A stretch of 64,000 nucleotides of DNA from Erythrobacter longus (GTDB lineage Bacteria; Pseudomonadota; Alphaproteobacteria; Sphingomonadales; Sphingomonadaceae): assembly GCF_000715015.1 (NCBI RefSeq), contig NZ_JMIW01000003.1, positions 186,001 through 250,000 on the forward strand, read 5' to 3'. This document shows positions 52,043 through 55,337 of the stretch, piece by piece. The first letter of the stretch is position 1, and each line of letters starts with the position of its first letter. The translations under genes were made by a program, and so were the position numbers. The notes beneath the pieces are model-generated. The model ran no database searches. It had not been told where the DNA came from and saw only the letters and a program-made list of their open reading frames with translations.

Positions 52043-53083
52043 ATGCATCTGACCCGTGCAATCACCCTTTTGCGCAAACACGCGCCTGCCCGTAAGGTGG
52101 GGGCCGCGCTTGGCGCGTTTACCGCTGCAGCGGTTGTTGCAACCACGCCCATTCCTGCAATGGCCCAGGATGATACAGAAGCGCGCTTGCGCCGGGCAGA
52201 GGCGGAAATTCGCGCCTTGCAACGCACCGTCTTTCCGGGCGGCGATGGCCGTTTCTTTGAACCATCCATCCCGGCTAACGGGGGTGAGCAGCCTACGCGC
52301 ACCACTGCACAAACAAATGCGCGACCTTCGACCACTGCGGTGACAGATATCCTCGCAAGGCTTGATGCGATGGAGCTTCAGCTTCAGCGTCTGACCGCGA
52401 AGACTGAAGAGAACAGCAACGCTTTGAGCGCGCTTGATACAAGGCTTGCGGCCTTAGAGGGCGGAGGGGCTGCTCGCACTCTTCCATCAGGAACACCATC
52501 GGGAACCGAAATCGCACCCGAAGTCACTGGCGAGGCGACCAATCGGAATCTCGGTGTTATGACGGGAACAGGCTCAGGTGCTGGCGGCAGCAGTCAGGAG
52601 CAAGCATCGGGCACTACGACAAGCGCGGCTGCGGGACCAAGCGCTGAGCGTGTGGCGGGCGTCCAGGCCATCACAAAGCCGCAGACCGATGATGCGGGCG
52701 ATGACGAATATTCCTACGGCTTCCGGCTGTGGGAGGCGGGATATTATCCCGAAGCGCGCCAGCAATTGGCCTCTTTCGTTGAAGCATACCCCAACCATTC
52801 GCGCATCACTTATGGCCGCAACCTTTTGGGCCGCGCCTTCCTTGACGATGGTATGCCCGAAGAAGCCGCGCGCTGGTTCCTGCGCAATTATCAGGCTGAT
52901 CGCACAGCGCTTCGCGCGCCGGATAGCCTGTTGTACCTCGCACAATCCATGATTGCGATGGATGATACGCGCCGCGCCTGTATCGCTTTGGCAGAGTTTG
53001 GTGAGACTTATCCAGCGGTCGCAACCGGGCGTTTGGCGGGCCAATATCAGAGCAATCTGCAAAAGGTCGCTTGCGACAACTAA
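52043..53083 (+). CDS. cpoB: CpoB/YbgF-like periplasmic TPR protein
   Basis: The 346-residue product has a signal peptide (to about residue 41, A-M-A-Q), a coiled-coil region (about residues 45-60 and 110-145), a Gly/Ser/Thr-rich linker and C-terminal TPR-like repeats (YSYGFRLWEAGYYPEARQ and GRNLLGRAFLDDGMPEEAARWF). CpoB coordinates cell-wall synthesis with Tol-Pal during constriction. No tol or pal genes are next to it, but cpoB immediately before tilS is a common arrangement in alphaproteobacteria. A short RBS-like GAGGGAG precedes the start. Confidence 0.85.
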   Translation: MHLTRAITLLRKHAPARKVGAALGAFTAAAVVATTPIPAMAQDDTEARLRRAEAEIRALQRTVFPGGDGRFFEPSIPANGGEQPTRTTAQTNARPSTTAVTDILARLDAMELQLQRLTAKTEENSNALSALDTRLAALEGGGAARTLPSGTPSGTEIAPEVTGEATNRNLGVMTGTGSGAGGSSQEQASGTTTSAAAGPSAERVAGVQAITKPQTDDAGDDEYSYGFRLWEAGYYPEARQQLASFVEAYPNHSRITYGRNLLGRAFLDDGMPEEAARWFLRNYQADRTALRAPDSLLYLAQSMIAMDDTRRACIALAEFGETYPAVATGRLAGQYQSNLQKVACDN

Positions 53084-53103
53084 TCCCTCGAAGAGAGGAG
53101 GGG

Positions 53104-54135
53104 GTGCTGATTGCTAGGCCGCTTGATCTGACCGCGATTGACCCGGAACGCCTTGTGCGTTTCGCGGGCGCTCTCGAACGCCTGTGGCCCCAGGAACACC
53201 GCGAGGGACCTTTGGGGCTGGCGGTTTCAGGCGGGCCGGACAGCCTTGCTCTGTTGTTCTTGGCAGCCAGCGCCATGCCCGGTGAAATCGCAGTTATGAG
53301 CGTGGATCACAGCCTTCGCACAAGTGCTGAAGGCGAAGTCGCGCTGGTCGAAAACCTGTGCGGCGCGCTTGGCGTCCCGTTTACCAGGGCCAAGGTGAAA
53401 CTTGCATCGGGCAACCTTCAGGCCAAAGCGCGCGAGGCCCGCTATGCAGCGCTTGGGCATTGGGCGCATCAAGAGGGGCTGGGCGCGGTTGCAACGGCCC
53501 ATCACACCGATGATGCGGCTGAAACGCTGCTTATGCGGCTTGCGCGCGGGAGCGGTATCGCCGGGCTTGCCGGGGTGCGTGAATGGACCCACGTGCCGGG
53601 TTATGAAGACTTGCCGCTGATCCGCCCGCTTCTCGGCTTTAGAAAGGCCGAGCTTGAGGAGGTGGTGCACGCCGCCGGGGTTGCGCCTGTGCGCGACCCG
53701 TCCAATGCGAACCCAGCCTTTGACCGGGTGCGGGTCCGCCAACATCTGGCGCAGCACGAATGGCTCGATGCGCAAAACCTCGCGGCCAGCGCGCAGCATT
53801 TGGCGGAAGGGTGGCGGGCGCTTGAATGGTACGCGCAAGCCGATTGGGAAGAGATGGTCACGCGCGAGGAGACGGCGCAGGGCCTCCCCCAATATCGGTA
53901 TTACTGCAATGTGCCGCGCGTTATTCAGATCGAGACTGTGGTGCGCATCGTGTCCGAACTTGGCGGCCGGGTGAGCCGGAGCGAAGCGGGCACAGCGGTA
54001 GACCGGCTATGGCGCGGCGAAAATGCCTCGCTTGGCGGGGTGCTGGGCCGCTGCGATATTGAGAAGGTCGCCAAAGTGGGCGTGGAAATGCGCGTGTGGC
54101 GCTTTGTCCCCGAACCGCCGAGGCGGATGCACTAG
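53104..54135 (+). CDS. tilS: tRNA(Ile)-lysidine synthetase TilS
   Basis: The 343-residue product has the PP-loop ATP pyrophosphatase signature SGGPDS, then ATAHHTDDAAETLLMRLARGSGIAGLAG. It converts cytidine-34 of a tRNA-Ile to lysidine so that AUA is read. A GTG at 53104 preceded by GAGAGGAGG is the likely start. The stop codon TAG is made from host TA plus the first G of a MITE-like element, so the original C-terminus may have been longer. ftsH, often next in alphaproteobacteria, is missing here. Confidence 0.93.
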   Translation: MLIARPLDLTAIDPERLVRFAGALERLWPQEHREGPLGLAVSGGPDSLALLFLAASAMPGEIAVMSVDHSLRTSAEGEVALVENLCGALGVPFTRAKVKLASGNLQAKAREARYAALGHWAHQEGLGAVATAHHTDDAAETLLMRLARGSGIAGLAGVREWTHVPGYEDLPLIRPLLGFRKAELEEVVHAAGVAPVRDPSNANPAFDRVRVRQHLAQHEWLDAQNLAASAQHLAEGWRALEWYAQADWEEMVTREETAQGLPQYRYYCNVPRVIQIETVVRIVSELGGRVSRSEAGTAVDRLWRGENASLGGVLGRCDIEKVAKVGVEMRVWRFVPEPPRRMH

Positions 54136-54316
54136 GCTCAGGACCTATGAATCCCACCTTCGAGGTTTGAAGCAAAATGGCCTTGGGCAAGGAGTAAAGG
54201 TGCAGGAATACTGGCGGTCTTTCAAACCTTTATGACGCAGCACAGGGCCATTTTGGTCAAATCCGTGCTGGAAGTCATTCCGGCGCCTCGATGGAGGGAT
54301 TCATAGGTCCTGAGCC
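54135..54316. mobile_element. MITE-like element, 182 bp, with terminal inverted repeats and TA duplication
   Basis: Both ends carry GGCTCAGGACCTATGAATCCC as inverted repeats (perfect over about 20 bases, then interrupted similarity to TCGAGG). Each end is flanked by TA, as in IS630/Tc1-mariner insertions. A further inner pair matches imperfectly (CAAAATGGCC and GGCCATTTTGG). There is no coding capacity, so mobility would need a transposase elsewhere. It separates tilS from the L,D-transpeptidase gene. Confidence 0.75.
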
Positions 54317-54320
54317 TAAG

Positions 54321-55190
54321 TCACCCGCTGATGAGCTTGTCGCCCACGTTGACCATCCTGCCGCGCGTGACGATCACCTTGTCCCCGCGCTTGGCGATGG
54401 CGAAAAGCTTTTCCGCAAATGGGTCAGGCACACCCACACAGCCGTGCGAGGCGTAGCCGTTCATTACCGGTGAGCCGTGGATTGCAATACCATCCCACGT
54501 CATGCGCAGCGTCCAAGGCATTGGCGCATTGTCATATTTCTCCGACACATTGTCCTTTTCCTTGGTCAGGATTGGGAAGGTGCCGACGGGCGTCGGGTGG
54601 CTTTTTGTGCCGAGCAGCGCGACCGCTGTGCCAATTTCGTGGCCGTCGCGAAAAACGCTGATGACGCGCGCATCGAGGTCAACAGTGATAACCAGCTTGC
54701 CCTTGGCAGGGGCGCGGCTTTCATCCCAGAACCACTCGCCATATTTGATCGTGCCTTCAATCGGCAGGATTGAGTTGATCACAAAGGGATCTTCGGGCGC
54801 TTCTTTTTTGGGAGCAAGAGCAGGGGCGGGCGCTGGTGCCCGTTCCAAAGCGCGCGCCGTGATGTCGGCAGGCGCTGCTGGAAGCTCTGGCAGGGCGCCA
54901 TCTTGCGCAGGGATCATGCGAGCCGCGGGCCCGCGTGGTGCATCCTGCAGGGCTGCGCTGGTTAGTTCTTCTGGTGCCGACGGAAGTTCAGGCAGGGAGG
55001 CGTCATTGGCCGCGTATGGATCAGGCAAGGACGGGTCGAACACCAGCGAGTCGCCACCCGTCGTGGGGTCGATCGCCCGGATTTCGTCAACCGCCATATC
55101 GCCAGCGTTTTGTCCAACCACAAGCGTTGCACCGCCCGTCAACGCAGCCAACCCTACGACGGTTGCCAAGCGAAGTTTGCCAAAAGCCAT
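54321..55190 (-). CDS. L,D-transpeptidase (YkuD-type) with signal sequence
   Basis: The protein is about 289 residues from the ATG at 55190, which has AAGGGA just upstream and starts at a signal peptide or anchor (KLRLATVVGLAALTGG). Earlier in-frame ATGs exist. After an acidic Pro/Ala-rich linker, the YkuD domain has the catalytic AIHGSPVM ... ASHGCVGVPD motif. These enzymes form 3-3 cross-links in peptidoglycan or attach lipoproteins to it. The 3' end lies two bases from a MITE-like element. Confidence 0.88.
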   Translation of the reverse strand: MAFGKLRLATVVGLAALTGGATLVVGQNAGDMAVDEIRAIDPTTGGDSLVFDPSLPDPYAANDASLPELPSAPEELTSAALQDAPRGPAARMIPAQDGALPELPAAPADITARALERAPAPAPALAPKKEAPEDPFVINSILPIEGTIKYGEWFWDESRAPAKGKLVITVDLDARVISVFRDGHEIGTAVALLGTKSHPTPVGTFPILTKEKDNVSEKYDNAPMPWTLRMTWDGIAIHGSPVMNGYASHGCVGVPDPFAEKLFAIAKRGDKVIVTRGRMVNVGDKLISG

Positions 55191-55337
55191 AACCAAAAAT
55201 CCCTTCATTACGCAGCGCATTATGCCGTTTTTTGGAGCTCGCCGCTAGGGGTAAGCGCGCAGGCGTCCCTCGTGGGGACGTAAAAGGGTGCAAATTCTTA
55301 ACGCGGGACCTGTGAAATGCGAGCGCCGAGGCGGCAA

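Follow-up and report, generated by a model that had tools for sequence, protein, structure and literature searches.

The 3' end of tilS in the alphaproteobacterium Erythrobacter longus raises the question of how a gene can come to draw the last base of its stop codon from what looks like a mobile element, and what such an element is doing there. The window analysed here, the 64,000-nucleotide stretch at positions 186,001 to 250,000 of contig NZ_JMIW01000003.1, contains a tilS open frame with a PP-loop family domain on the plus strand at 53071–54135 (the true start may be near 53104), directly followed by an insert. A sequence-only reading had proposed a 182-bp insert with inverted ends and flanking TA, and its boundaries, 54135–54316 on the plus strand, proved exact, as did its view that the tilS stop, TAG at 54133–54135, consists of a host TA and the first G of the element. 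Its estimate of about 20 bp for the inverted ends was too low, the terminal arms being 28 nt long.

Counted with both TA dinucleotides, the insert spans 186 bp. The left TA of the target duplication (54133–54134) forms the first two bases of the tilS stop, and the right TA (54317–54318) is followed by A, the empty site reading C-TA-A. The terminal inverted repeats, 28 nt each with the TA included, lie at 54133–54160 (plus strand) and 54291–54318 (minus strand) and agree at 26 of 28 positions; the outer 19 nt or so of the left repeat are common to IS5-family elements, and a longer pair of 43-nt arms, 86% complementary, extends slightly past the element edges. Between the repeats lie an intact hairpin lobe, lobe A, at 54166–54261 on the plus strand, which includes a GA/GA internal loop and has a predicted folding energy of −39.5 kcal/mol on the plus and −26.1 kcal/mol on the minus strand, and a 9-bp hairpin at 54265–54286 (hand-counted from the dot-bracket structure), which comparison with full copies identifies as the remnant of a second lobe, lobe B. 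The window copy, which encloses no transposase frame, is an internally deleted derivative of a 268-nt family that has retained lobe A and lost most of lobe B. The insertion point is one base from the stop of a convergent L,D-transpeptidase (YkuD) gene on the minus strand (54321–55208, open frame to 55220), whose own TGA at 54321–54323 lies outside the element.

The very stable fold predicted for the whole window copy (−110.9 kcal/mol) would fit a resident, single-copy RNA or terminator of the tilS locus, and a single-copy sequence conserved behind tilS was the outcome that the sequence-only reading had named as speaking against a mobile element. The genomes hold something else. Within E. longus, an 18-base piece of the element end matched 12 sites in forward and 11 in reverse orientation with up to three mismatches, and the reversed control pattern matched none; the insert with a few flanking bases gave 41 genome matches, the best other copy being 89% identical over query bases 3–189. 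Since matches in such number lie far beyond chance, the window insert is a repeated mobile element. Ten own-genome copies have both ends and a TA on each side, and the remaining ones are incomplete, degenerate or truncated at a contig end; in all, the search for additional terminal repeats that had been called for yielded about a dozen relatives of the element. Among the 40 relatives searched, 37 had a tilS match, and in none of these 37 does the element stand behind tilS. Only two of the 40 carry copies at all, G007 on contigs other than that of its tilS match and G013 without a tilS match. We regard a resident tilS RNA as so improbable as to be practically negligible.

Some of the own-genome copies are worth recording in their own right. 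The end of contig C6 (C6:383309-383375) and the start of C7 (C7:1-67) lie inside the element: C6 closes with the first 67 bases of a copy and C7 opens with the last 67, and the two contigs may therefore join there. The copy at C1:719021-719250 (L047) shows a partial internal duplication, in tandem, of some 60 bases close to the left end, and that at C7:132469-132680 (L172/L050), located at the uppP stop codon, combines a full-length core with different terminal repeats (AAGACCTCAAACCC..).

What did the insertion do to tilS? It had been suggested that the native 3' end was replaced. TilS can be aligned to its last residue (354/354) in four relatives (G021, G024, G020 and G004), and in the nearest of these, G021, the stop falls in the same codon and reads CAC-TAA, a comparison drawn from plus-strand loci. 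Joined without the element, the window flanks read CAC-TAA as well, which implies that the element entered the TA of a TAA stop, now TAG, and left the protein unchanged. The relatives' C-termini and this reading of the empty site rule out a replacement of the tilS 3' end. Nor do the neighbourhoods support an interruption of the gene order by the element, as had also been supposed: the L,D-transpeptidase gene adjoins tilS in 14 of 21 same-genus tilS loci. Because it does so in relatives that lack the element there, the arrangement is, to judge from these neighbourhoods, older than the insertion.

The full-length form, with 268 nt between the same ends, is present in other genomes. A covariance model of the 212-nt core, built from 15 sequences, recovered that core in 75 of the 396 Sphingomonadales genomes sampled, spread over 23 of 84 genera; in a sample drawn across the class, 7 of 385 genomes had it, E. 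longus among them. The length of the core is nearly constant: among the 150 matches listed, it measures 211–213 nt in 125 and exactly 212 nt in 92, with 14 below 205 nt and 7 above 215 nt. Of the copies fetched for closer study, 114 out of 120 have a core of 211–213 nt, a set drawn non-randomly, with 110 copies from the top of the match list and ten from earlier searches, and shorter or weaker matches mostly left out. The terminal repeats, by contrast, vary from copy to copy (TAGGGTCAGGACC.., TAGG(T/C)CGTAAACTC.., TAGGGTCCGTACTC.. and others), while usually remaining near-perfectly inverted, with at least 24 of 28 positions in agreement in 108 of the 120. A TAGG start on the lobe A side is present in 80/120 and TA at both ends in 71/120; a pyrimidine precedes the TA in 105/119 and a purine follows it in 107/120, a target that we abbreviate YTAR. 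Plasmids of Novosphingobium, Sphingopyxis and Sphingobium also carry matches, and phages gave none.

Three loci, L140 (genome G101), L141 (G156) and L144 (G038), have the same ends around other cores that form long hairpins by eye, and are possibly sister families of structured MITEs. In G774, a genome from another order, five loci (L265, L270, L273, L275 and L276) match the core model at 72–88 bits over 207 nt, and in L275 and L276 both ends read approximately TAGG(G/T)TC(T/C)GG(A/C/G)CCCA.TAAT; these matches appear to be a diverged branch of the element family.

We then asked which transposase might move such an element. The flanking TA had pointed the sequence-only reading to IS630/Tc1-mariner-type transposases, for which a TA duplication is typical. 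When 396 Sphingomonadales genomes were scanned for the end sequence with two mismatches allowed, 53 matched, and the control pattern was absent among the matches listed. Where two ends lie some 850 bp apart, two overlapping frames occupy the space between them, and the 35 pairs at a spacing of 834–869 bp in the loci scanned represent 30 distinct insertions. In eight loci with these ends (L114, L115, L130, L116, L117, L119, L120 and L128; five with both ends and three with one end in the stretch covered), the best match of the frames is the IS5-family model NF033580, at 97.6–104.5 bits for the first frames and 148.6–157.3 bits for the second, against a cut-off of 110 for the whole protein; PF13340 and PF01609 were matched by the IS frames in those loci tried. 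A single-ended locus, L129, has an IS256-family frame instead. No IS630 frame was present among the frames examined at loci with these ends, and a length of 834–869 bp fits IS427 better than IS630 elements, which measure about 1.1 kb. An IS630/Tc1-mariner origin of the element is thus very improbable. The target of the IS copies likewise has C or T before the TA (28/30) and G or A after it (27/30), and these copies resemble the IS427 group in length, in their two overlapping IS5-family frames and in a 2-bp duplication.

Bacterial MITEs are often viewed as remnants of insertion sequences. Here, the element and the IS copies have only their outer 19–23 bp in common: in a comparison of the element with the IS interior, all 481 short blastn hits at E ≤ 0.01 touch the outer 45 bases of the query and none lies inside. 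This confinement of the similarity to the ends rules out a core derived from the IS interior. Within the 14-contig E. longus assembly, no transposase with matching ends was found. The genome has a single IS5 frame, which is distant (36% identity) and lacks the element ends, and its element copies thus seem to have no mobiliser of their own today, as far as an assembly in 14 contigs can tell. For the TAGG.CGTAAAC type of end, no second end of an IS partner was found in the four regions opened.

Among the matches listed for this end sequence, many come from Rhodobacterales and Rhizobiales, often with the sequence at a contig end, from which it follows that the IS group extends much more widely than Sphingomonadales. 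In plasmid pMC4 of Sphingopyxis indica (L430, 260942-264209), an element end, an IS5-family IS with ends TAGGTA.CGTTTACATTCAG and another element are stacked at CTAG sites, the last stacked copy being 99.3% identical to a copy in G257; this stack suggests that a regenerated target was used repeatedly.

By the features tested, namely small size without a transposase frame, terminal inverted repeats with a target duplication, multiple copies, and ends common to autonomous IS5-family elements in other genomes, the element is a MITE. We consider it highly probable that it is non-autonomous, is moved in trans by an IS427-like IS5 transposase, and is silent where it sits at stop codons. According to this model, the transposase would recognise ends of the form TAGG(G/C)TCAGGACC and duplicate the TA within a YTAR target; mobilised in trans in this way, the element would here have landed in the TAA of tilS, beside the stop of the convergent L,D-transpeptidase gene.

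The position at tilS proved to be typical. Of 60 copies analysed outside E. longus, the gene caller puts 37 exactly in a stop codon and 9 of these in two convergent stops at once, a count that leaves out 49 of the 120 fetched copies without TA at both ends and a further 11 with flanks shorter than 250 bases. In E. longus itself, 6 of 10 copies do so by gene caller and codon-usage calls. IS copies with the same ends are in stop codons by the gene caller in only 2/23 cases (Fisher test, 37/60 versus 2/23, p = 1.4e-5), and of 174 YTAR sites in the window, a null taken from one genome, 12 are stops and 107 lie inside genes. Calls based on codon usage place 39 of the 60 copies at a stop and 12 in two convergent stops, compared with control YTAR sites at 5/58 for other-genome loci and 2/15 for own-genome loci. 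With a training set made up of the window and 30 tilS loci, the codon table is less sensitive for IS copies, many of which come from other orders; 36 of 46 IS-copy flanks were called non-coding. Under a cruder rule (an open frame of at least 100 codons, the longest of three), the contrast is weaker, at 45/71 for copies versus 21/58 for control sites.

Four other own-genome genes that have the element in their stop end at the same position in relatives: the difference is no more than 4 residues in 22 of the 23 resolved rows, and one further row was unresolved; a fifth gene was matched by no relative. Copies in seven plasmid regions were inspected as well, two of these regions lacking annotation. 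Of the five annotated regions, three have no CDS touching the element match, in Sphingopyxis indica pMC4 the final three bases of an element copy are also the end of an L,D-transpeptidase CDS, and in Sphingobium yanoikuyae pF1 (L436, locus 1137-1661) a DUF779 CDS ends 38 bases inside the matched element, which may supply its last codons. The stop-codon pattern is therefore strong in gene calls on chromosomal copies and is not universal.

The ends themselves offer an explanation. As the element begins with G after the TA, a copy that enters the TA of TAA or TAG rebuilds the stop, on both sides if convergent genes share the site, and leaves the proteins unchanged. Since IS copies with the same ends lack the pattern, survival rather than targeting is the likelier cause, and stop codons would be a safe place for copies in a dense genome. 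This accords with a reading of the element as a selfish passenger whose old insertions survive at stop codons and whose structure is kept for reasons that act on DNA, either correction of the palindrome by template switching or a hairpin or cruciform formed in transposition. The 2/23 of the same-end IS copies is what this reading expects, provided that the MITE pattern results from time and purging. Against it stands the excess of exact stops when the comparison is confined to YTAR sites no more than 100 nt downstream of a stop: 36/43 for copies versus 11/30 (p = 5.4e-5). To us, the selfish reading has about an even chance of being right. Whatever keeps the copies in place, the stop-codon rule offers a simple account of transposon persistence in a genome with a coding share of about 90%, since a hit in TAA or TAG is made silent by the first base of the element. 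Gene prediction and comparative work should allow for stop codons that a mobile element provides.

We next considered the structure of the core. In 14 full copies, the predicted fold comprises a closing stem formed by the terminal repeats, lobe A, usually a 4-bp hairpin, and lobe B, with energies of −153 to −177 kcal/mol. RNAalifold applied to the alignment of these copies gave 104 pairs, 47 of them with compensatory changes. For a broader assessment we used the 89 of 120 copies whose core is exactly 212 nt, which a 90% identity filter reduced to 51 non-redundant, ungapped sequences with a mean pairwise identity of 63.5%. Paired cells make up 92.1% in these, compared with a mean of 72.3% and a maximum of 73.4% over 300 column shuffles, and double changes occur in two or more sequences at 80 of the 104 pairs. 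Controls with slid partners were 34–45% paired, with 32–50 pairs showing double changes, and flatter the fold, its pairs coming from a 15-sequence consensus partly inside the tested set; the column shuffles are the fairer yardstick, and both controls ignore the kinship of the copies. That the length and fold of the core are held constant while the terminal repeats vary suggests selection on structure. A known RNA family can be set aside for the loci scanned: against Rfam at E ≤ 1, six loci returned only MIR918, on L151, at 33.1 bits against a gathering score of 268, and no credible match.

The internal loops of the two lobes are conserved as well. Lobe A has GA opposite GA (columns 60-61 and 101-102), each letter kept in 44–48 of the 51 copies, and lobe B has TTC opposite TTC (columns 152-154 and 221-223; GAA opposite GAA on the other strand), kept in 44–47. 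Such fixed loops sit poorly with the selfish reading, as palindrome correction should, by our reasoning, erase them.

The lobes also differ in polarity. With RNA parameters, lobe A is stabler on the plus strand in 51/51 copies, by a mean of 13.1 kcal/mol, and lobe B on the minus strand in 49/51, by 11.5 kcal/mol, and the whole element has no strand preference in folding energy. As all copies are related, 51/51 describes one ancestral state that has been conserved and not 51 independent events. The sequences behave in the same way: GU outnumbers CA in the paired cells of lobe A (41:18 without three wobble-rich sites, 123:19 with them), and CA outnumbers GU in lobe B (30:79), a bias that runs against the selfish reading and that, at 80% redundancy, holds, counted by sequence, for lobe A (9 to 0) and is not significant for lobe B (6 to 12, p = 0.24). 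The terminal stem, with GU and CA nearly equal (33:30) and hence no GU excess, counts in favour of the selfish reading. DNA energy parameters return the same lobe polarity, which also suits a selfish passenger. Polarity under both sets of parameters indicates strand-specific folding of a single strand and does not tell RNA from DNA; together with the lack of a GU excess in the terminal stem, it leaves action in RNA short of proof.

If the lobes do act in RNA, they would do so in transcripts running past the stop from either side, a more weakly grounded step of the model in which the element becomes a two-way mRNA 3'-end structure. Transcription of each gene would first reach the lobe with the better fold on that gene's strand, and this lobe would stabilise or define the 3' end of the message and insulate convergent neighbours. 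The opposite polarity of lobes A and B speaks for such a device, as do two conserved wobble pairs of lobe A (in 35/51 and 34/51 copies) and the copies lying in stop codons and in paired convergent stops. It has to contend with a consensus scan that found no intrinsic terminator or promoter in the window copy, with the shortened lobes of the own-genome copies listed, and with the absence of a clear rule as to which lobe faces a gene: among the 45 copies listed, a gene adjoins lobe A alone in 20, lobe B alone in 9 and both lobes in 16. We hold this reading to be possible and somewhat unlikely. An RNA role of the lobes would explain the kept structure, the fit of lobe to strand and the staying of copies at gene ends; we give at least equal weight to a selfish element whose ability to fold is maintained at the DNA level. 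The fuller proposition, that a 268-nt RNA structure spreads ready-made 3' UTRs among the genes of alphaproteobacteria as a mobile two-way mRNA 3'-end element whose core outlives changes of its ends, we regard as doubtful. Were the lobes to act in RNA, the family would amount to a natural set of portable 3' ends, and genes with and without the element would test the control of bacterial mRNAs by 3' structure.

How does this element compare with known systems? A search of the open-licence literature, judged by title and the start of the abstract, found no paper on this element family; the main text of a review of prokaryotic MITEs (PMC10969869) contains neither "stop codon" nor "sphing", and the latter string is also absent from the main text of a second review (PMC2229807). 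The closest relatives of its ends are in the IS427 group, which in Paracoccus is described as having members of 832–865 bp with inverted repeats of 13–21 bp, a 2-bp duplication (4 in one element) and two overlapping frames with a frameshift motif (PMC3281130). The IS copies identified here are alike in their length of 834–869 bp, two overlapping frames and pyrimidine-TA-purine site, and have about 19 bp of their ends in common with the element; the element differs in being non-coding, in a core unrelated to the IS interior, and in its frequent placement at stop codons, unlike the IS copies.

Among other small elements, REPINs and the ERIC, NEMIS and CIR families come nearest. REPINs are likewise described as short mobile palindromes in which compensatory hairpin changes are common, with spacer length and folding as critical features, but they consist of two inverted REPs tied to RAYT transposases (PMC3116915), whereas the present element combines IS5-type ends and a TA duplication with a multi-lobed body of 268 nt. 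ERIC/RU-1, Correia/NEMIS and other bacterial MITEs are similar in their small size, TA at the ends and long stem-loop transcripts, and for NEMIS stem-loops the reviews report a proposed cleavage by RNase III (PMC2229807, PMC10969869); the element differs from ERIC and NEMIS in its closing stem and two lobes with internal loops, in covariation over 51 divergent copies, and in its stop-codon placement. By their descriptions, two further families are set apart. CIR, from Caulobacter and other alphaproteobacteria, has two long arms and a linker, but is about 110 bp long, with GANTC at the loop and no 5'-3' closing stem (PMC2229807), and QMITE2 of Coxiella has terminal repeats of 23–29 bp around a core and a stable transcript fold, but makes duplications of 7–9 bp in another host (PMC10969869). 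Set beside these systems, the element is in our reading a new MITE family whose copies are either tolerated or retained where genes end, and which may serve as an RNA 3'-end structure in both directions.
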